A stretch of 64,000 nucleotides of DNA from Nitrosomonas halophila. GTDB taxonomy: Bacteria > Pseudomonadota > Gammaproteobacteria > Burkholderiales > Nitrosomonadaceae. A program made the translations under genes and the position numbers. The stretch's first letter is position 1. Every line of letters begins with the position of its first letter. A model generated the notes under the pieces. That model was given only the letters and a program-made list of their open reading frames with translations, did not search any database and was not told the DNA's origin. This document shows, in pieces, positions 43,527 to 54,134 of the stretch. Location: the NCBI RefSeq assembly GCF_900107165.1, contig NZ_FNOY01000001.1, forward strand, positions 1-64,000, given 5' to 3'.

Positions 43527-44317
43527 ACCGCGACCGGCGCATGGATGGGGGGATGGGGATCGTAGTGCTGCAAGCTGAAGTCCTCGTACTTGAAATCGAA
43601 AATATTGGTGACTGTGGGATTGAGCTGCATGCAGGGCAGCGCTCTGGGTTCTCGGCCGAGCTGCAGCCGGGCCTGATCGATATGATTCAGGTACAAATGC
43701 GCATCGCCAAAGGTATGAATAAACTCCCCAGGTTGCAGTTGGCAGCATTGCGCGATCATGAGTGTCAGCAGTGCATAGGATGCGATATTGAAAGGCACGC
43801 CCAGGAAAATATCCGCGCTGCGTTGGTATAACTGGCAGGACAGTTTGCCATCCACGACATAAAACTGAAACAGTACATGGCAAGGCGCTAGCCGCATTTT
43901 GCCGAGATCGCCGACATTCCAGGCGGAGACCAGCATCCGGCGTGAATCAGGGGTTTCCCTGATCTGCTGAATGACCTGCGTAATCTGGTCGATCGAGTCC
44001 TTGTCCGTAATCGTCCATGAGCGCCATTGATGGCCATAGATCGGCCCCAGATCTCCATTCTGATCTGCCCACTCATCCCAGATGGTGACCTGGTTCTGCC
44101 TGAGATACTGAATATTGGTGTCGCCGCGCAGAAACCACAACAATTCGTGAATGATCGATCTGACGTGACATTTCTTGGTGGTCACCAGTGGAAACCCCGC
44201 CTGCAGATCAAAACGCATCTGATAGCCAAAAATGGACAAGGTGCCGGTGCCGGTCCGATCGGTTTTTTTACGGCCATGCTCGAGCACATGCCGCATCAAA
44301 TCGAGATATTGACGCAT
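43523..44317 (-). CDS. thyA: Thymidylate synthase
   Basis: This 264-residue enzyme, exactly the E. coli length, methylates dUMP with methylene-tetrahydrofolate. It shows [31 protein letters not shown], the catalytic cysteine in [12 protein letters not shown], and the dUMP-binding [17 protein letters not shown]. It is the first gene of thyA-folA. The 137-bp upstream region toward cysB has no gene and probably carries the thyA promoter. Confidence 0.97.
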
Positions 44318-44454
44318 GAATAGCCCTGGTTGATAGTTACCTGACGTGTATCATACACGACTGGGCGTATTATCTCGCTCCAGGAATGGGGCGCAGGCGT
44401 ATGCAAGCGCGTTTCTGCCCGGGCAGTGAGCGATAAACACGAAAGCCGATCGCC

Positions 44455-45393
44455 TCATAACGGCGGGTCCATTTCCTGTTCAACATTCATGCGAACAACA
44501 GCTTCATTGATCGTGGGCACACATAATTCCATGAACCGGTAAGCATAACTGCGCAGATAATGGTTCTGCCTGACAGAAATATAGGTGGTATTTTGTTCGA
44601 ATAGATCGGCGCCATTCAACCTGACAAGATGGGTATCTTTTTCGGGGATGAACGCGACCGAAGCGATAATTCCTACCCCGAGGCCAAGATTCACATAAGT
44701 TTTGATGACATCCGCATCCAGGGCTGACATGGCGATATCGGGGGTAAGCCCGGCGCGAATGAATGCCTGATCGATCCGGGAACGGCCAGTGAAGCCTTCA
44801 TGGTAAGTGACGATTGGAAATTCCGCAATTGCTTCCAGAGTGAGGCCGGGAACGGAGCACAAGGGGTGTCCGGTGGGTACAATGATAATGTGATGCCAGG
44901 AGTAATAGGGGAAGGAAACCAGGTATTTGGTATCCTTGAGCGCTTCGGTCGCAATGCCGATATCGGCCTGATCACCGAGCAGCATGGATACGATTTCACC
45001 CGGACTGGACTGATGCAGCACAAGATGCACTTTGGGAAACGCTTGTTTGAATTGAGTGATGACGGCAGGGAGCGCATATTGCGCCTGGGTATGGGTGGTG
45101 GCAATGATCAATTGTCCCGTGTCATGACAACTGAATTGCTCGGCCAGCCGTTTGATATTGCGGGTGTCCAGTAAAATGCGCTCGACAATTTTGATCAGCG
45201 CCTTGCCGGGCTCGGTCAGACCGGTGAGCCGCTTGCCTCTGCGTACGAACAATTCAATATTGAGTTCGTCTTCCAGATCTTTGATATGCTTGCTGACACC
45301 TGACTGTGAAGTGAACAGCTTGTTGGCCACTTCGGTCAGATTGAAGTTCTGACGAACGGTTTCGCTGATGATACGAAGTTGTTGAAAATTCAA
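44455..45393 (-). CDS. cysB: LysR-family regulator CysB
   Basis: This 312-residue LysR-type regulator has a winged helix at the N-terminus (MNFQQLRIISETVRQNFNL, then LFTSQSGVSKHIKDLEDEL) and an effector domain with TTHTQAQYALPAVI and TYHEGFTGRSRIDQAF, features of CysB/Cbl. It normally activates sulfate-assimilation genes when O-acetylserine or N-acetylserine signals sulfur shortage. It lies 118 bp downstream of the sulfate transporter operon on the same strand, so it probably regulates that operon. Confidence 0.93.
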   Translation of the reverse strand: MNFQQLRIISETVRQNFNLTEVANKLFTSQSGVSKHIKDLEDELNIELFVRRGKRLTGLTEPGKALIKIVERILLDTRNIKRLAEQFSCHDTGQLIIATTHTQAQYALPAVITQFKQAFPKVHLVLHQSSPGEIVSMLLGDQADIGIATEALKDTKYLVSFPYYSWHHIIIVPTGHPLCSVPGLTLEAIAEFPIVTYHEGFTGRSRIDQAFIRAGLTPDIAMSALDADVIKTYVNLGLGVGIIASVAFIPEKDTHLVRLNGADLFEQNTTYISVRQNHYLRSYAYRFMELCVPTINEAVVRMNVEQEMDPPL

Positions 45394-45511
45394 TGTGCGT
45401 CTCGCTGATGTTGGCTGTATGGGTTAAATCGTATGGCAGATCAATTCAAGGGATGTGTGTGCAATGCATGTTTCCCGGCAAAGCGATCAAACTGCTCTGA
45501 GGCAGAGCCAG

Positions 45512-46603
45512 CTAGGAGGCAAGCAAACTTTGGTTGGCTGGATCTGGAAAGAAATCCAAGCGGCGAGGCCGGATATAAACCTTATCCCCTTTTGCCAGCT
45601 GTAACGCCCGGAAGCGCTCCTTGCTCAATTCGACCTGGATGGTGTCCTGGTTTTGATGATTGTTCCGGACAAGTTCCAGTTTGACCACGCGGCCTGTAGA
45701 AAGCACATGTACAACGCGTGCCGCAAGCGCCGGTTCACCGTTGATTTCCCGTTCCACTTCAATCTCATGTGGCCGCACATAAGCAATGGCTTCAAACGCA
45801 TCGGCCTCGGCATGTTCCGGCGCGTGAATTTCAATATTATCAATCCATGCTCGGCCACGCTGTACCCGGCCATGAAATAGATTGACGTGACCCAGAAATT
45901 CGTAAATGAATGGATTGGCAGGCTTTTCATAAACCTCGTCGGGGGTGCCGATTTGTTCGATACGGCCCTGGTTCATCACTACGACTCTGTCAGCGACTTC
46001 AAGGGCTTCTTCCTGGTCATGGGTGACGAAAATGCTTGTGATATGCATATCATCGTGCAATTTGCGTAACCAGGCGCGTAATTCCTTGCGTACCTTGGCA
46101 TCGAGCGCGCCAAACGGTTCATCCAGTAACAGCACTTTGGGCTCCACTGCCAGCGCCCGCGCGAGCGCGATACGTTGCCGCTGCCCGCCAGAGAGCTGAT
46201 GTGGATAGCGGTCTGCCAGCCAATCCAGTTGAACCAGTTTAAGCAAATGGGTGACGCGTTGATCAATTTCCTGGGAAGTGGGGCGATGCTTTTTCGGGCG
46301 AACCCGCAAACCAAACGCCACGTTTTCAAAAATGGTCATATTCCGGAACAGGGCATAGTGCTGGAACACGAAACCCACTTGGCGATCGCGTACATGCTTG
46401 CTGGTCGAGTCTTCGTTATTGAACAATACCTGTCCGCTATCCGCTGTTTCAAGTCCGGCGATTACCCGCAGCAATGTGGTTTTGCCTGAACCGGAAGGGC
46501 CAAGCAAGGCAAGCAATTCGCCGGGTTTGATAGCGAGATGGATATGGTCAAGTGCAACGAAAGATCCGAATTGTTTGGAAAGATTGCTGATTTCAATGCT
46601 CAT
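45512..46603 (-). CDS. cysA: Sulfate/thiosulfate ABC transporter ATPase CysA
   Basis: This 363-residue protein has an N-terminal ATPase with GPSGSGKTT, the Q-loop [12 protein letters not shown], signature [14 protein letters not shown], Walker [13 protein letters not shown] and the [14 protein letters not shown]-loop. A C-terminal TOBE-type regulatory domain follows (about 235-355). It energises sulfate uptake through CysT-CysW. It overlaps cysW by 11 nt. The length matches the family. Confidence 0.96.
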
Positions 46604-47483
46604 GGTTAATTTCTCGTGGTTGATGTTGTTTTGCGAGGCGGTGTTCCACCAAAGTTTTGGCTGCGAGGGTTATCAGAGCGAGCATTGCCAGCAGCGAAGC
46701 GACTGCAAAGGCGGCTGCAAAGCTGTATTCGTTATAGAGAATTTCGACATGCAGCGGCAGGGTATTGGTGCTGCCACGTATATGGCCTGAGACGACGGAT
46801 ACGGCTCCGAATTCGCCCATCGCCCGTGCATTGCAAAGAATGGTGCCATATAGCAACCCCCATTTGATATTGGGAAGCGTGACCCGCCAGAGCGTCTGCC
46901 AGCCGTTTGCACCCAGTATCACAGCAGCTTCTTCCTCTTCTGTTCCTTGCGCTTGCATCAAAGGAATGAGTTCGCGTGCAATAAACGGTACGGTGACAAA
47001 AATGGTCGCCAGGACAATGCCTGGGACAGCAAATATAATCTGAATGTCATGTGCTGCCAGCCACGGTCCTAACCAGCCTTGCAACCCAAAAACCAGTACA
47101 TAGATCAAACCGGCCACGACGGGAGAGACCGAGAAAGGCAGATCGATCAGCGTGATCAGTATGTTTTTTCCACGGAACTCAAATTTGGCGATCGCCCAGG
47201 CAGCCGCAATGCCAAATATCAGATTCAGTGGGACGGCAATTGCCGCGGCGGTGAGGGTCAGTCGCATTGCCGCCAATGCATCGGGCTCGGTGATGGCAGC
47301 ATAATAAACATCCCACCCTTTTTTGAGTGCTTCATGGAAAACCGCTACCAATGGCACGAAAAGAAACAATGCCAAAAAGGTTAGGGCGAGCCCAATTAAT
47401 ATCCAGCGTACCCAGGCGGACTCTTCGGCAATCCGTGCGCTTTGCAGCCTGCCGGAAGATAGCGTTTGTGCAAGTGTCGTCAT
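46593..47483 (-). CDS. cysW: Sulfate ABC transporter permease CysW
   Basis: This 296-residue protein has about six transmembrane helices and the permease EAA loop ([36 protein letters not shown]) that docks on Cys[23 protein letters not shown] is characteristic of CysW. It lies 17 nt after cysT and overlaps cysA, showing tight operon structure. Confidence 0.94.
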
Positions 47484-47500
47484 GAGAGTTTATTTCCGTT

Positions 47501-48334
47501 TTATGCCAGCGAGTTGCGGTGGCGATTCCACCATTGCAGAACATTGATAATCAATAACAGCGCAAATGAAATTACCAGCATCACGACGGCGATAGCCGTC
47601 GCACCAGTGTAATCATATTGTTCCAGCTTGGTGATAATCAGCAGTGGCGTGATTTCTGAAATCATCGGCATATTGCCCGCAATAAAAATCACTGATCCAT
47701 ATTCACCAATGGCACGCGCAAAGGCCAGTGCGAAGCCAGTTGTCAATGCAGGAAGAACCGTTGGGAAAATAATGCGTTGAAAGGTTTGCAGGCGTGTTGC
47801 GCCCAGCATGGCGGCGGCTTCTTCCAGCTCTGGTTCAATATCTTCCAGTACGGGTTGCACGGTACGGACAACGAACGGCAATCCAATGAATGTCAGCGCG
47901 ACGAAAACGCCTAGGGGCGTGTAGGCGATTTTTACGCCTAGCGGTTCCAGGTATTGACCGATCCAGCCGTTGCCTGCGTAGATGGCGGTGAGCGTAATGC
48001 CGGCCACAGCAGTCGGCAGGGCGAAGGGGAGGTCGATCAAGGCATCCACAAAGCGTTTGCCCGGAAATCGATATCGTACCAGCACCCAGGCTACCAGCAA
48101 TCCAAACACAGCATTGACCAATGCCGCAGCCAAAGAAGCGCCGAATGTCAGACGGTATGATGCCACGACCCGGGGTGCGGTCACTGTCGCCCAGAATTCT
48201 TGCCAGCTAAGCTCTGCTGTTTGAATAAACGTCGCTGAGAGAGGGATCAGAACAATCAGGCTCAGATAAAGCAGGGTGAACCCCAACGCCAAACTGAAGC
48301 CTGGCAAGACACTATATTGTTTAAAGGTACTCAC
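47501..48334 (-). CDS. cysT: Sulfate ABC transporter permease CysT (CysU)
   Basis: This 277-residue protein has about six transmembrane helices. LIDLPFALPTAVAGITLTAIY and the EAA loop PVLEDIEPELEEAAAMLGATRLQTFQRIIFPTV identify the CysT partner of CysW. The N-terminus MSTFKQYSVLPGFSLALGFTLLYLSL is typical. It follows sbp by 112 bp in the same direction. Confidence 0.94.
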   Translation of the reverse strand: MSTFKQYSVLPGFSLALGFTLLYLSLIVLIPLSATFIQTAELSWQEFWATVTAPRVVASYRLTFGASLAAALVNAVFGLLVAWVLVRYRFPGKRFVDALIDLPFALPTAVAGITLTAIYAGNGWIGQYLEPLGVKIAYTPLGVFVALTFIGLPFVVRTVQPVLEDIEPELEEAAAMLGATRLQTFQRIIFPTVLPALTTGFALAFARAIGEYGSVIFIAGNMPMISEITPLLIITKLEQYDYTGATAIAVVMLVISFALLLIINVLQWWNRHRNSLA

Positions 48335-48446
48335 AATCTGAACTCCTGGTGATCAAGGTGTCATAACTGGCCTGCAGTACAGTTAGCAAACTGGAACAAG
48401 TGATGTTTGCCGGTATGAGCGAACGACTGCGTCAAATTGGCTGTTA

Positions 48447-49451
48447 TCAATACTCGTAAATTTTGTCGAATAAACCGCCGTCACTGAAATGAATCTTTTG
48501 TGCGTTTTGCCAGCTACCGAATGCTTCATCCACTGTAACCAGGTTGAGTTTTGGAAACTGATGGGTATAGCGCGCTGCAATTTTCGGGTCACTGGGGCGG
48601 TAGAAGTGTCGTGCGGCAATTTCCTGGCCCTGCTGGGTGTAGAGATATTCCAGATAGGCCTGTGCAACATCTCTTGTGCCATGTTTGTCGACGTTCTTAT
48701 CGACGAGTGTTACCGGTGGTTCGGCAAGAATGCTGATTGAAGGAAGGATAATTTCGAATTTATCCGGGCCGTATTCCTTGATGGCCAGAAAGGCTTCATT
48801 CTCCCAGGAAATGAACACGTCCCCGATGCCGCGCTCAACAAAAGTTGTGGTTGACCCGCGTGCGCCGGAATCAAGTACCGGGACGTTTTTATAGAGTTTT
48901 GCCAGAAAATCGCGAACCTGGGTTTCATTGCCATCATATTTCCTGAGCGCGAAGGCCCATGCAGCCAGGTAATTCCAGCGTGCGCCGCCAGATGTTTTGG
49001 GATTGGGGGTGATGACGGCGACGCCGGGTTTGATCAAATCATCCCAATCTTTAATTCCTTTGGGATTTCCCTTGCGGACCAGCAAAACAATGGTCGAGGT
49101 ATAAGGGGAGCTGTTATGAGGCAGACGACTCTGCCAATCCTTGGGGATCAGGCCAGATCGTTCACTGATTTCATCGATATCATAGGCAAGCGCCAGGGTG
49201 ATGACATCGGCCGGCACACCGTCGATGACCGCCCGCGCTTGCTTGCCGGCGCCCCCATGTGATTGTTTGACGGATATTTTTTCTCCGGTTCTGTTTTGCC
49301 AATCCTGGATGAACGCTTGATTGAATGCCTGATACAACTCCCGGGTTGGGTCATAAGAAACATTGAGAATGCTCCTGTCGGCCAGTGCGTGGTGACTGAC
49401 AAGCAGGCTGGATGCAACCAATCCGGCGGATAGCCATATACTGAATTTCAT
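48447..49451 (-). CDS. sbp: Periplasmic sulfate-binding protein
   Basis: This 334-residue solute-binding protein has a signal peptide (about 1-25, ending HHALA) and family motifs [52 protein letters not shown] and [21 protein letters not shown]. It delivers sulfate to CysT-CysW. The start at 49451 is preferred because AAAGG precedes it at good distance and the signal peptide begins there. It lies 27 nt after the outer-membrane channel gene. Confidence 0.95.
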
Positions 49452-49478
49452 AAGAATGCCTTTCATGAGAAATGGATA

Positions 49479-51062
49479 TTATTTAAATGCGCTGACTGAT
49501 ACTTCTACATAGAAAAAATTACTGCCGGAAGCGGTTTCACCTAACGTGGCCAGTTGCCGGTTCTTGACAAATTCACCATTGAACCAGCGTGAGTAACCCA
49601 CAGTGGCGTTGACATGTGACGTCAATTTATAGATTGCCCGGAGATCGATGGCGTGTCCGAGAAAATCGCCGCTGTTGCCAGTGCGGTCACGATTGCCGCC
49701 TCTGCCGTTGAGCAGATTGTTGAAACGATCAGTTTTGCTGGCTAACCAGAACCCGTTGTAGCCACCGTCGATTCTTAGATCAGTATGCGGTTGAAATTCA
49801 AGCCTGATTTTGGGTGCTTTGATATTCTCCGGTACAAAATAATCATCTGCTGACCAGGGGCGCGCAAACCCGAAGAATCTTTCAAAACGATTGTTTACAT
49901 TGTAGTTGGGATCACGATCACCGCTCACAAAGCCATAGAAAGCACTGATGCGCGGTTTCCAGCTCAGTTGCTGAAAGGTATGGCCGAACTCCAGGAAATA
50001 AGCCCAGGCCGCTTTCTTCTGTCCGTTATCGCGCCCAAACTGATAAACTGTGCTCAGGTCAAAGTCTATTTCGGTGCCGGGCAATACCCCATAAGCGCGC
50101 AGGGCAGGAGAATGAATTTCCCGTTTGGCTTGTGTGCCTCCCTTGTCGTCTTGCATGAGGCCCATGTAATAGGGTTGCAAGGTGACGACCTCGGACCATT
50201 TGCGCCAGTGACCGATCGCACCGTAAAACCATTGGCTTTTGTTGCGACGGTCAAATTCGTCTATGAGCCTTATCACCAGCTGCATGCCCCATCCATCGAT
50301 TTCCCAGTCATTGGCTTCCTGACCAAGCGTGACGCGAAACCCTTCGAAGTTATTGGTGGTATTCCGCCACTGGTTATTGCCCAACAAACGCCGGTCTAAT
50401 GCTTCCCAGGCCATGCGGCCGCCCCGGATTCTGATGGGGCGATGATTCCCTAAATCATCTTGCCCTAATGCACCCCTAAAATAGAGTTCGCCATAAGTTT
50501 GAATCAATTCAAATTCATTCCAGTCCCGATTGTCTTTTGGAAACTTGCCGTGATAGCGACGCGCATCCTCAAATTCAACCACGAGCCGCAAAGGATCCAG
50601 AATCTCCCTGATGCCTACATAGGCCCGGGTTCTCAGTAAAACGGGATGATCGGTAGTGATCCGGTCACGGCGAAGATCATTGTTACGCAATTCATAGCGA
50701 ACGCGGTGATCCAGCCCAACATCCAGCCAGTAGAGATCCTTGAAGGCATCAATGCCGGTTTTTGCCAGATTGCGCACGTAGCGGGGCGGATCGGTCTCGG
50801 GATGCGTGCTGTAGCTGCGCGCACGTTGGTAAAAAGTGCCAGGTTTGGCGTCCTGTACCGGATTGCCGGCAGCGGTTGGCGTGTGTATGACGCCAGCTGA
50901 ACGACCGGTATTCGTTAATTGGTTTTGAGCAGTCTGCAACATGTTTTGTTGAGTTGTTTGATCAGTTGATCCAGTAGTGATTATGTTTTTTTCTGCCTGA
51001 ACGGAACCGGCAGTTAAAAAGCTGTTAGCCAGCAGAATCCAGATAAATCTGGCATGCTTCAT
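49479..51062 (-). CDS. Alginate_exp-type outer-membrane beta-barrel protein
   Basis: This 527-residue protein has a signal peptide (about 1-23, ending GSVQA) and a low-complexity stretch (about 25-75). A barrel domain of alternating amphipathic strands follows, with RVRYELRNND, LLRTRAYVGI, IRGGRMAW, SAFYGFVSGDRDPN, NGFWLASKTDRFNN and a C-terminal phenylalanine-containing strand. This resembles the alginate-export porin family. Given its place first in the sulfate transport operon, it probably admits sulfate or organosulfur anions rather than alginate (inference). The 166-bp gap to yezD has no gene. Confidence 0.78.
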   Translation of the reverse strand: MKHARFIWILLANSFLTAGSVQAEKNIITTGSTDQTTQQNMLQTAQNQLTNTGRSAGVIHTPTAAGNPVQDAKPGTFYQRARSYSTHPETDPPRYVRNLAKTGIDAFKDLYWLDVGLDHRVRYELRNNDLRRDRITTDHPVLLRTRAYVGIREILDPLRLVVEFEDARRYHGKFPKDNRDWNEFELIQTYGELYFRGALGQDDLGNHRPIRIRGGRMAWEALDRRLLGNNQWRNTTNNFEGFRVTLGQEANDWEIDGWGMQLVIRLIDEFDRRNKSQWFYGAIGHWRKWSEVVTLQPYYMGLMQDDKGGTQAKREIHSPALRAYGVLPGTEIDFDLSTVYQFGRDNGQKKAAWAYFLEFGHTFQQLSWKPRISAFYGFVSGDRDPNYNVNNRFERFFGFARPWSADDYFVPENIKAPKIRLEFQPHTDLRIDGGYNGFWLASKTDRFNNLLNGRGGNRDRTGNSGDFLGHAIDLRAIYKLTSHVNATVGYSRWFNGEFVKNRQLATLGETASGSNFFYVEVSVSAFK

Positions 51063-51228
51063 TTGTTACCCCCTTGATTCTGAAGGAAAGCGCTTCCGGT
51101 TTTCCGGTCAGGTCGTATCCAGTTGTGGTGACCTTTCTCCTCCAGTTATCTGGTCGGGGTAAAACTCAAATTTTTCCAGGCATGGTTGGGCGTGATTGAG
51201 TTTGTTGATTTGTCATTCGATTGATGAG

Positions 51229-51402
51229 TTAACCCGGATGGCCAATGCGAATTTTTTCTCGACATTCGATTTGAACGACTTTTCCCTCATGGATGACGAT
51301 TTCAACCGATCCATACTTGATCTGTTGAATCGCGCGAAAGATTTGCTGTTCAATCTCAACAGGCGTCTGTTTCCGTTTTGTTGGAGCAATGCCGATAGTC
51401 AT
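51229..51402 (-). CDS. YezD-family (DUF2292) small protein
   Basis: This 57-residue protein, MTIGIAPTKRKQTPVEIEQQ followed by IFRAIQQIKYGSVEIVIHEG and KVVQIECREKIRI, matches DUF2292/YezD small proteins. These are often found with sulfate or cysteine uptake genes and have no proven function. Their fold is predicted as a helix followed by two strands. It lies directly upstream of the porin-sbp-cysTWA operon on the same strand and is probably its first gene. No clear ribosome site precedes the ATG, which lowers start certainty. Confidence 0.8.
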   Translation of the reverse strand: MTIGIAPTKRKQTPVEIEQQIFRAIQQIKYGSVEIVIHEGKVVQIECREKIRIGHPG

Positions 51403-51449
51403 GATGTTTGGAATGAATGTTTATCGAGTTGCGACAAAATATCAGTTTC

Positions 51450-51474
51450 TTTTTATTGTTTGAAACAATAAAAA
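51450..51474. promoter_or_regulatory. Perfect 25-bp AT-rich palindrome upstream of yezD
   Basis: TTTTTATTGTTT, one central base, then AAACAATAAAAA: a perfect inverted repeat about 50 bp before the yezD start, in the 320-bp gene-free region between yezD and the RiPP cluster (51403-51722). It could be an operator for the sulfate operon or a terminator-like element for antisense transcription. The regulator is not identified. Confidence 0.45.
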
Positions 51475-51722
51475 TTCATTTCTTTATCAGAATTAAAGAT
51501 AAACAGGCGTAGTCAATTTTGATGGTTTGGCAAGATGGGGAAAGATTTCGTTGGATTGGTGGGGGTGTGAGGCAAGTGGCGAGAGAGGGGGATGGATGCT
51601 GTTTGATTGCAGTCTTTCTTTATTGCTTGCCCGGCTGCTTTCTTATGACAAGGCGCTATGATTCAGGCGGGTAAAGAGGAGGGCGTGTGTTGCAGATTTT
51701 CAGAAAAGATTGGGAAAAGGGT

Positions 51723-52496
51723 TCATTCGTGCTTCCAGGTGCCTAGCAGCGCGCCACGGGTGGCCAGGTCATGCAGCAACTGGCCACCCGTTTCAATGAC
51801 CCGTTGCGGATTGGGATGGTTGATTTCCGTTGCAATTTGCCTGAGCGCTGCCTGACCGGTCGGCTGTTCGGTTTGAATCAGCTCCAGCAAGCGTGCCGTG
51901 ACTGGATTGAGGGTGGCGAAATGCACTGCATCCTCGGCATCGCGGTACAGCAGGTAACAGTGCATGTGATGGTCCGGGGCTGCGGGTTTGAAGCGGGGAC
52001 CGATACGGTGCACCGGATAGGCATAGCAGGCGAGCCGGGAGCCGGGATGGAGAACCGGACGCTCTGTCAGCAAATCGCCATCGGGATCGATTTGTTCTGG
52101 ATCGGGCTCTGCCTCGGCGATCGAGACCGACAGCTCCAGCCATTCATAGTGCATCAGCTGGACAAGAAAGGGCAGCGCGGTAAAGTCGCTTGCGGCGATA
52201 CCGGCCTCCATCCAATCGAGAAATGCTTGGGGAATATCCCGAAACAGGGGGGAATGACAGCGGTGTTCCCGAAAGAAACGGCGCACTGTCCGCTTCCAGG
52301 CTCGTGTGCTCAGCAGTTCGCGGGTGACCGGATAACAGGCGAGTAAGAAACTTTCCAGGTTGTTGAACAATAATTGTTCATAGACGCGCATGCGGCGTGC
52401 CGTCGCACCGGGTGGGCGGGGCGCGTTGCGTGGATCGCGGATCCTGGCTGCGAAAGCGTTCTGGTAAGCGGCGTGGCCAAGGGTTTCAGGCTGCAT
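51723..52496 (-). CDS. hvfC: HvfC/BufC-like DUF2063 protein, RiPP maturation partner
   Basis: This 257-residue protein has a DUF2063 N-terminal domain (about 1-95: QNAFAARIRDPRNAPRPPGATARRMRVYEQLLFNN with ESFLLACYPVTRELL and FFREHRCHSPLF) and a C-terminal domain resembling DUF2063-associated proteins. Such proteins pair with DUF692 MNIO enzymes and are thought to present the precursor peptide to them. It overlaps hvfB by 11 nt, so the two are translationally coupled. The start at 52496 agrees with the family beginning. Confidence 0.88.
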   Translation of the reverse strand: MQPETLGHAAYQNAFAARIRDPRNAPRPPGATARRMRVYEQLLFNNLESFLLACYPVTRELLSTRAWKRTVRRFFREHRCHSPLFRDIPQAFLDWMEAGIAASDFTALPFLVQLMHYEWLELSVSIAEAEPDPEQIDPDGDLLTERPVLHPGSRLACYAYPVHRIGPRFKPAAPDHHMHCYLLYRDAEDAVHFATLNPVTARLLELIQTEQPTGQAALRQIATEINHPNPQRVIETGGQLLHDLATRGALLGTWKHE

Positions 52497-53328
52497 GGTT
52501 GACCTTGGCTGCACGGGATTGCAATCTCCGGATGGTTTCAATTTCAGGCAGCAAATCGGCGAGTGGGGGAATGTTGAAATCGCGTTCCAGCAGCGTGGGC
52601 CGCTTGCCCTTGCAGGCATAGGTGTATGCGAGCAGCGACCATACCGGATCGATGACCGGCGCGCCATGGGTGTCTATGATGAGATCATCGGCTTCGTGGT
52701 AATGCCCGGCCACATGCAGGTAAACGATGCGCGCCGAGGGCATGGCATCGATGAAGGCATGTGGATCGTAGCGATGGTTGATGGCGTTTACGTAAACGTT
52801 GTTGACATCCAGGTGGAGATCGCAATCGGCTTCGTCGAGTACCGCACGAATGAAATCCTGCTCGTTCAACTCGGCTATCGACGGCGTGACATAATAGGAC
52901 GCATTTTCTAGCGCGATCCGCCGTTCAAGAATATTTTGTGCTTGGCGGATTCGCGTCGCGACATGCTGGACCGCATCGCTCGTGAAGGGTATGGGTAGCA
53001 GATCATATAAATGCCCGTCGTCGCCACACCAGGACAGATGCTCGGTAAACAATTCGATTTGATATTGATCCAGAAAGCGTTTGACGCGTTTCAGAAACGC
53101 CGTATCCAGCGGTGCGAACCCGCCCAGATTGAGGGAGAGCCCATGCGCCACAATGGGGCGCTGCGCTGCGATAGCTTCGAGGTCGCGTCGCCGCCGTCCT
53201 CCCATTTCCATCCAGTTTTCTGGGGCCAGCTCAAAAAAATCGATGGCATTCGGGATATCGGTTCTGAGACCGGAAAGATGCTCCCGTCTCAGACCGAGGC
53301 CCGCGCCATGCAGAGATAGCGCATGCAT
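52486..53328 (-). CDS. hvfB: MNIO-family (DUF692) RiPP maturase, HvfB/BufB-like
   Basis: This 280-residue TIM-barrel protein belongs to the multinuclear non-heme iron oxidase family, which includes methanobactin MbnB. Likely iron ligands are in place: H62 (AHGLSLNLGG), E96 (EHLSW), E141-N142 (LENASYY), D174-N175 (DVNNVYVN), H205 and H209 (HVAGHYH), D219 and H221 (DTHG), with a further Glu in LERDF. These enzymes oxidise cysteine residues of precursor peptides into oxazolone/thioamide or thiooxazole groups that bind copper. The neighbouring seven-Cys precursor is the obvious substrate. It lies 18 nt after the precursor gene. Confidence 0.93.
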   Translation of the reverse strand: MHALSLHGAGLGLRREHLSGLRTDIPNAIDFFELAPENWMEMGGRRRRDLEAIAAQRPIVAHGLSLNLGGFAPLDTAFLKRVKRFLDQYQIELFTEHLSWCGDDGHLYDLLPIPFTSDAVQHVATRIRQAQNILERRIALENASYYVTPSIAELNEQDFIRAVLDEADCDLHLDVNNVYVNAINHRYDPHAFIDAMPSARIVYLHVAGHYHEADDLIIDTHGAPVIDPVWSLLAYTYACKGKRPTLLERDFNIPPLADLLPEIETIRRLQSRAAKVNHAA

Positions 53329-53346
53329 GATCGCACTCCGGCTGGA

Positions 53347-53673
53347 TTATTTATTACCGCCGCATTTACCTTCGCCACATTTACCTTCCCCGCATTTGCC
53401 TTCTTTGGCTTTTTTTGCGCTGTCATCCTTGGCTTTGTCGCCGCCGCATTGACCTTCCTTGGCTTTTTTGCTGTCCTTGGCGCCACCGCACTTGCCTTCG
53501 CCACATTTGCCCTCGCCGCATTTGCCTTCCGCACCCTTGGTGGACGCTTCGGCTATGTTATAACCTTGGGACAGGGATTGCATTTCGAAAGGGTTGTCCG
53601 TGGCATGGGCGAGACCCATGGTGCCGAGTGCGGTCGTGAGTGCGATAGCCAGTGGGGTGTTGGATTTTTTCAT
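53347..53673 (-). CDS. hvfA: EGKCG-repeat RiPP precursor, HvfA/bufferin type
   Basis: This 108-residue precursor has a Sec signal peptide (about 1-24, cleavage near AHA) and a conserved linker DNPFEMQSLSQGYNIAE. Its core holds EGKCG units at 49-63 (three), EGQCG at 73-77 and EGKCG at 91-105 (three), giving seven cysteines at 52, 57, 62, 76, 94, 99 and 104, with Lys-rich spacers between. In HvfA-type peptides the cysteines of EGKCG are modified by an MNIO enzyme and bind copper. A strong ribosome site (AAGGAG) precedes the ATG. The 423-bp upstream region (53674-54096) holds its promoter. Confidence 0.92.
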   Translation of the reverse strand: MKKSNTPLAIALTTALGTMGLAHATDNPFEMQSLSQGYNIAEASTKGAEGKCGEGKCGEGKCGGAKDSKKAKEGQCGGDKAKDDSAKKAKEGKCGEGKCGEGKCGGNK

Positions 53674-53957
53674 TGATTTCTCCTTTCGAGATTGTCAGAT
53701 TAAAAATAAAAACATAGGTGCCGCTATCTATAGCCATCGGGTGACAGCCGACACCAACTTTGCAACAAACTCATAGCATAAGGCAATCAGTCTGGACTAT
53801 GCTAGCGGACTTGTCCAGTTGACCTGCCCATAGTTTGCAGATTCCGGTTGTAGCCGTGGCGTTTCATTATGATTGCATGACGAAGCAGGATTGATTCGCA
53901 ATGTTGACATGTGAATAATCCTGAAAATCTCTTTCAAGCAGATATAATACCGTCACA

Positions 53958-54134
53958 ATGACATTCGATAAAGATGATACCAATCAGACCTCATTCGATG
54001 AGCCAGCGTTACTTAGAGTCCTATTGAAAGAGGGGCGGATCACATGCCATGACTCGATCCGGCAATCCGCTTATATAGACAACTACCAGGAAACTAATGC
54101 TTGCAACACTAATACAAAACGAAGCTTCATTTGA
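53958..54134 (+). CDS. Doubtful small open frame before the aminopeptidase gene
   Basis: A 58-codon frame starts MTFDKDDTNQ and overlaps the aminopeptidase start by 38 nt. TATAAT lies at 53943-53948, but no ribosome site precedes the ATG and no family is recognised. It may be the 5' leader of the aminopeptidase mRNA rather than a gene. Confidence 0.2.
   Translation: MTFDKDDTNQTSFDEPALLRVLLKEGRITCHDSIRQSAYIDNYQETNACNTNTKRSFI

Follow-up and report, generated by a model that had tools for sequence, protein, structure and literature searches.

A 64,000-nucleotide stretch of the Nitrosomonas halophila genome, referred to here as the window, carries a three-gene cluster, hvfABC, which very probably makes a secreted copper-binding peptide of the EGKCG/oxazolin (captophorin) branch. 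The cluster is of a known kind; what is new is its history, as sequence comparisons make it look borrowed from a distant relative and not inherited with the genus. The reading that we favor, with a probability of roughly 80%, is that of a minimal captophorin cluster that was acquired horizontally and whose product would be thiooxazole-modified and would act as a Cu(I)-binding buffer or sink.

The operon occupies positions 51723-53673 on the minus strand (Table 1) and is tightly packed, with 18 nt between hvfA and hvfB and an 11-nt overlap of hvfB and hvfC. The original prediction placed three coupled genes here, and all three were found at the stated location. The longest hvfC frame in a mechanical ORF list starts at 52667 and encodes 314 amino acids; we set the start at the ATG at 52496 because the alignment with 3DEE begins there (MQPET). 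GC content is modestly higher in the operon than in the window (0.57 versus 0.53). No sigma-70-like site was found on the minus strand of the presumed hvfA promoter region, and the four promoter-like sites in the region do not exceed the chance expectation of 3.1. A common promoter motif was also rejected, the sole 8-mer present upstream of hvfA in at least three other operons being far upstream. A copper regulator, predicted to be absent nearby, was indeed not found among ten neighboring ORFs and three window ORFs that were scanned.

Table 1. Positions of the hvfABC genes and of the surrounding block in the window
Feature	Position	Strand	Description
hvfA	53347-53673	minus	precursor, 108 aa
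hvfB	52486-53328	minus	MNIO maturase, 280 aa
hvfC	51723-52496	minus	partner, 257 aa, DUF2063 + C-terminal NGO1945_C (RRE-type) domain
presumed hvfA promoter region	53674-53911	minus	upstream of hvfA
9.6-kb block	44329-53911		LysR, cysA, two ABC permeases, solute-binding protein, Alginate_exp porin, hvfCBA
left block end TGAATAGCCCTG	44317-44328	plus	thyA start/RBS region
right block end TGAATAATCCTG	53912-53923	plus	10/12 equal to left copy

The N-terminus of HvfA, read by eye as a Sec signal, consists of an MKKSNT n-region, a hydrophobic stretch and a site between AHA and T; the leader motif is NPFEMQSLSQGY. The translated ORF bears out the cysteine pattern first noted for this protein: seven cysteines (52, 57, 62, 76, 94, 99 and 104) arranged in blocks of 3-1-3, within six EGKCG units and one EGQCG unit (Cys76). 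Across 20,000 shuffles of residues 25-108, EG(K/Q)CG units averaged 0.0097 and never exceeded one, compared with the seven observed. HvfA passes the HvfA-family domain model NF050137 (38.7 bits, cut-off 19.5), falls below the cut-off of the HvfA equivalog NF050188 (39.8 bits, cut-off 95), and has no match in Pfam.

The assignment of the two other proteins to DUF692 (MNIO) and DUF2063 is confirmed by Pfam. HvfB passes the HvfB family model NF003818 (416.8 bits, cut-off 360) and scores 347.9 bits against PF05114 (MbnB_TglH_ChrH); it remains below the cut-offs of the BufB equivalog NF050167 (280.2 bits, cut-off 310) and of the MbnB model TIGR04159 (36.1 bits, cut-off 325). By sequence it matches the PDB entries 3BWW, 8HCI (TglH) and 7DZ9 (MbnB). 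An AlphaFold model built from 29 sequences (pLDDT 88.8, pTM 0.88) matches 3BWW with TM-scores of 0.82/0.90 and MbnB chains with 0.76-0.78 by query length, and its fold also matches that of TglH. In addition to this predicted fold, the expectation of a complete set of iron ligands holds at the sequence level: the candidate ligands H62, H97, E141, D174, N177, H205, H209, D219 and H221 are invariant in all 113 aligned MNIOs, and E248 and D250 are kept in all 111 that have that column. R14 is present in 113/113, R15 in 107/113 and F251 in 108/111. Which of these candidates bind iron is in part assumed from MbnB. Mapped by shared motifs, and not by an alignment with HvfB or FonB, N177, D219 and H221 correspond to HvfB N175, D242 and H244, whose alanine variants are inactive (PMC13419390). 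By the same mapping D250 corresponds to FonB Asp249, and R14, R15 and F251 to FonB Arg15, Arg16 and Phe250, which are described in PMC12668002 as the catalytic base and as substrate-selectivity residues, respectively; the published residues have been either shown or proposed to matter.

The partner, HvfC, passes the HvfC family model NF050145 (287 bits, cut-off 142), contains the Pfam domains PF09836 (DUF2063) and PF22106 (NGO1945_C), and matches 3DEE in the PDB. An adjacent DoxX gene had been reported as missing, and DoxX has no match anywhere in the window; its name in the prediction, HvfD, does not agree with PMC13419390, which names the DoxX-like partner HvfX. A search for a doxX remnant in the 660 bp that follow hvfC yielded only chance-level scraps (best E 0.44). 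Two DoxX genes are present elsewhere in the genome, on contigs C65 and C139, one weakly similar to the DoxX of sister operons (35%, E 2e-4) and the other unmatched. In the seven sister loci outside the genus that are described below, doxX immediately follows hvfC in all except L036, as confirmed by Pfam for L034. Of 26 same-genus loci inspected, 24 extend 1,200 nt or more past hvfC, and none of these has DoxX there.

Family models, structure and the published chemistry of homologues (PMC12668002, PMC13419390) all back the original assignment to the HvfABC-type copper RiPPs. To regard the exact modification as unknown was too cautious, as characterized EGKCG homologues carry 5-thiooxazoles and bind copper. 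Fontiphorin, oxazolin and gonophorin each contain 5-thiooxazoles, formed with the loss of four hydrogens per repeat, and FonABC, encoded by the minimal three-gene cluster fonABC, installs seven of them (PMC12668002). The active cofactor of HvfB is a mixed-valent diiron site that is reached only with HvfC (PMC13419390). The modification and its number, export, copper binding and a detoxifying role are accordingly taken from these homologues. By analogy, HvfC, through its DUF2063 and RRE domains, would bind the N-terminal part of HvfA and present the core to HvfB, whose mixed-valent diiron site would oxidize each cysteine (-4 H) to a 5-thiooxazole. All seven units, EGQCG included, would be converted, a change of about -28 Da. 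EGQCG is not among the repeat variants named in the passages considered here; according to PMC12668002, the third position of the repeat tolerates Ala, Arg and Thr, Phe and Glu severely impair processing, and Gln is not named. The modified peptide would then be exported by Sec to the periplasm, where it would bind Cu(I) and, most likely, buffer or sequester excess copper; up to four copper ions are bound by MBP-fontiphorin (PMC12668002). With the doxX of six of the seven sister loci missing here, a step could be lacking.

The case for horizontal acquisition is based on the ancestry of HvfB and HvfC and on the insertion site. MNIO matches are present in 64 of 85 genomes of the genus, the window's included, and the best full-length identity of the window MNIO to any of the others is 64%. 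It is 72-76% identical over its full length to the MNIOs of seven loci outside the genus (two Tepidiphilus MAGs, one Hydrogenophilales MAG and four other betaproteobacterial or unplaced MAGs), which belong to a set that was found by patterns from the window's own MNIO and leans towards its relatives. An MNIO fragment in the same-genus genome G003 reaches 70% over residues 96-272; for these residues only, the gap is smaller, with 75-80% identity to the seven sisters versus 68-71% to eight same-genus loci. HvfC follows the same trend (58-66% to the sister loci versus 36-44% to 26 same-genus loci). Both a quick tree of 113 MNIOs (99 SH-aLRT) and a careful tree of 55 (support 95/98) place the window MNIO with the seven outside sequences. 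Joining it in one clade with same-genus sequences is rejected by AU tests, whether these are the main group (p 0.0002), the EF-hand group (p 1e-8) or the two combined (p 3e-15); the first two groupings were defined once the tree had been seen. Same-genus MNIOs fall in three separate lineages of the tree. The window branch is long (0.35-0.36), and therefore the donor itself is not among the sampled sequences.

The surroundings of the operon in related genomes point in the same direction. The eight genomes nearest by LAP protein (74-77%; G063, G017, G036, G001, G067, G012, G021 and G105) have no MNIO match. A 9.6-kb block sets thyA, whose identity was confirmed by Pfam, apart from the LAP promoter region in the window and in none of these eight relatives: in each relative, DNA aligned with thyA (to window position 44328) ends 77-97 bp before DNA aligned with LAP (from 54089-54097). 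Within this gap, four of the relatives have 37-39 bp that align with window positions 53912-53950. Sulfate transport genes are found beyond LAP, on the side opposite to that in the window, in six relatives, and were not seen in the stretches examined of the other two, G012 and G067. From this difference in position relative to LAP, we read the block as a rearrangement comprising both native genes and the foreign operon. The 12-bp repeat at the two block ends may be a target-site duplication, but its left copy also forms the thyA start region; the right end, TGAATAATCCTG, runs into a LAP promoter-like site, CTGAAA-16-TATAAT (53921-53948). There is no tRNA in the window, and hence no tRNA target, and no transposase among the nine main ORFs of the block. 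A plasmid vehicle was rejected: the MNIO matches 352 plasmid records, in every one of which the best place is below 60% identity, and no donor plasmid emerged. Contamination is unlikely, since in comparisons within the genus LAP reaches 77% and the porin 79% identity, relatives share DNA-level synteny around the locus, and the assembly is 99.21% complete with 0.2% contamination. Where the window has one Alginate_exp porin gene, we note that a close relative, G036:C19, has two genes of this type in tandem, one of them apparently broken (L159, 2144-5803).

The operon might instead be native, if an ancestor of the genus had possessed several hvf paralogues and this lineage alone had kept the present one through many losses. 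Two MNIOs from different clades do coexist in G016, and repeated losses would also empty the eight nearest relatives. Those relatives have an unbroken thyA-LAP junction as well as no MNIO match, however, and with the window MNIO grouping with seven non-genus sequences (95/98) and no same-genus MNIO above 64% over its full length, we regard vertical inheritance as unlikely.

The function of the product has to be weighed between protection from excess copper and, in the manner of methanobactin, copper acquisition for ammonia monooxygenase. Ammonia oxidizers need copper enzymes yet suffer from copper excess, and N. europaea tolerates up to 100 uM copper (PMC13003922). The genome encodes AMO, a copper enzyme, in line with an ammonia oxidizer, and thiooxazole peptides bind copper, so that an acquisition role can be envisaged. 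It is nevertheless improbable in our view: the neighboring ORFs scanned include no TonB receptor, the operon being adjoined by the Alginate_exp porin, and PMC12452194 and PMC12668002 connect bufferins and oxazolins with excess copper, and methanobactins with copper acquisition. Furthermore, of the 70 good genomes of the genus (completeness of 90% or more, contamination of 5% or less), 17 lack any MNIO match, which would make the system dispensable if these are also ammonia oxidizers.

To place the arrangement of the precursor in context, 60 same-genus loci, including that of the window, were examined, giving 45 precursors with at least three units, 13 with two only, and two loci with none nearby; 55 other loci contributed 29 precursors. 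The number of cysteine units per same-genus precursor ranges from 1 to 11. The layout seen most often is 2-1-2 (24 of the 45), and a block of three occurs in three further precursors (L090, L123 and, by eye, L077). A conserved 3-1-3 pattern did not emerge from this survey, as the window precursor is the only one of 87 to have it, and its symmetry is equally unsupported as a meaningful design. The layouts differ across precursors and therefore vary quickly. The central EGQCG unit is found also in G009 (L019). The 13 two-unit precursors of the genus (L010, L011, L015, L017, L018, L110, L129, L139, L140, L142, L144, L145 and L146) look as if they were losing cysteine units; in six (L010, L015, L017, L140, L144 and L146) a TGA follows EGK or ESK where relatives have a cysteine codon. 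Selenocysteine was ruled out at these six ends, no EGKCG-like sequence being present after the TGA. One EGKCG cluster, from Sulfuritalea, encodes an ECF-type sigma factor (Sigma70_r2, r4_2; L043, 6657-7241) right after hvfC, which recalls the sigma factors reported for Buf1 clusters.

That the window operon is itself a decaying import, which has lost doxX and whose product is unmade or unmodified, would fit the presence of doxX in six of the seven sister loci and the shrunken and TGA-terminated precursors of the genus, but the three intact ORFs, the conserved active-site residues, the cysteine kept in all seven HvfA units and the production of fontiphorin by a three-gene cluster (PMC12668002) make it very unlikely.

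A second precursor without a maturase of its own clade is encoded elsewhere in this genome. A search with HvfA recovered a further protein on contig C115 (19385-19744; L170:1465-1824; E 4.9e-11), which has a signal-like N-terminus, NPFSLQPMEKGF, GEGKCGEKKCG and then two EF-hands. Roughly 2,000 EGKCG precursors have been surveyed, some of them fused to EF-hands (PMC12452194). Near full-length relatives of the C115 protein (65-78%, or 69-88% in split matches) are present in seven other genomes of the genus: four (G098, G011, G068 and G016) carry an EF-hand-group MNIO, two (G086 and G093) one of the main type, and G067 none that matched. The only MNIO of the window genome is the acquired one, which is of a clade other than the EF-hand group, and the C115 precursor is thus either unmodified or served by the foreign HvfBC. 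We tentatively consider, as a possibility that is more doubtful than not, that the maturase was replaced, such that the foreign HvfBC would act on its own HvfA and also, in trans, on the native EF-hand precursor, the genus having met hvfBC at least three times. If true, captophorin precursors and maturases would be exchangeable parts. The varied MNIO lineages and precursors make cross-specificity and the need for DoxX directly testable. In G067 (C77; L166, 2270-2692 and 1790-2209, minus strand) an EGKCG/EF-hand precursor with one cysteine unit adjoins a small Cys-rich protein; the latter scores weakly against DUF326 (16.3 bits, below the cut-off of 20.4) and recalls copper storage proteins.

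A secreted thiooxazole copper buffer could set the copper range of ammonia oxidizers. Within the open-licence library that was searched, we found no paper linking Nitrosomonas with MNIO or DUF692, or "ammonia oxidizing" with bufferin.

Among known systems, methanobactin MbnABC has the MNIO fold in common with the window cluster, but the partner here is of the DUF2063 type and not MbnC, and the score of 36.1 against the MbnB cut-off of 325 rules out this assignment. The Buf1 bufferins resemble the cluster in their secreted precursor, MNIO, DUF2063 partner and link to copper. The term "bufferin-type" used in the original prediction nonetheless needs narrowing: membership in the HvfABC-type family stands, and the Buf1 part is ruled out by an MNIO below the BufB cut-off and by the lack of any match to DUF2282, the Buf1 family, in the genome at E <= 0.001. 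Most clusters mix RiPP, MNIO, DUF2063 and DoxX genes in varied combinations (PMC12452194). The hvfABC genes of nontypeable Haemophilus influenzae share with the window EGKCG repeats, the HvfB and HvfC families and, as read by eye in the window precursor, an N-terminal secretion signal; the H. influenzae precursor has six cysteines in three AEGKCGEGKCG motifs and is accompanied by the DoxX-like HvfX, whereas the window has no HvfX and its precursor misses the HvfA equivalog cut-off. The closest MNIO and HvfC proteins are those of the Tepidiphilus/Hydrogenophilales-like EGKCG clusters (L032-L037 and L048), with MNIOs 72-76% and HvfC proteins 58-66% identical to those of the window, a similar leader, NPFxMQ(S/T)LxxGY, and similar KAK-containing spacers; they differ in having 4 to 10 cysteine units in other layouts and, in six of the seven, doxX directly downstream. 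The nearest parallel in the literature is the fonABC cluster of Fontimonas thermophila, compared here by its published description; it consists of three genes only (precursor, MNIO and PME1/DUF2063), with seven EGKCG-type repeats in blocks and the same Arg-Arg and Asp-Phe active-site motifs. FonA fragments generated by LysC lose 8, 12 and 8 hydrogens (PMC12668002), which in our own reading corresponds to blocks of 2-3-2, as opposed to 3-1-3 in the window, and the EGQCG unit is a further difference. Because fontiphorin, as described in PMC12668002, matches all three of the features that had been singled out as oddities, the seven cysteines, the Lys-rich spacers and the missing DoxX are not new.
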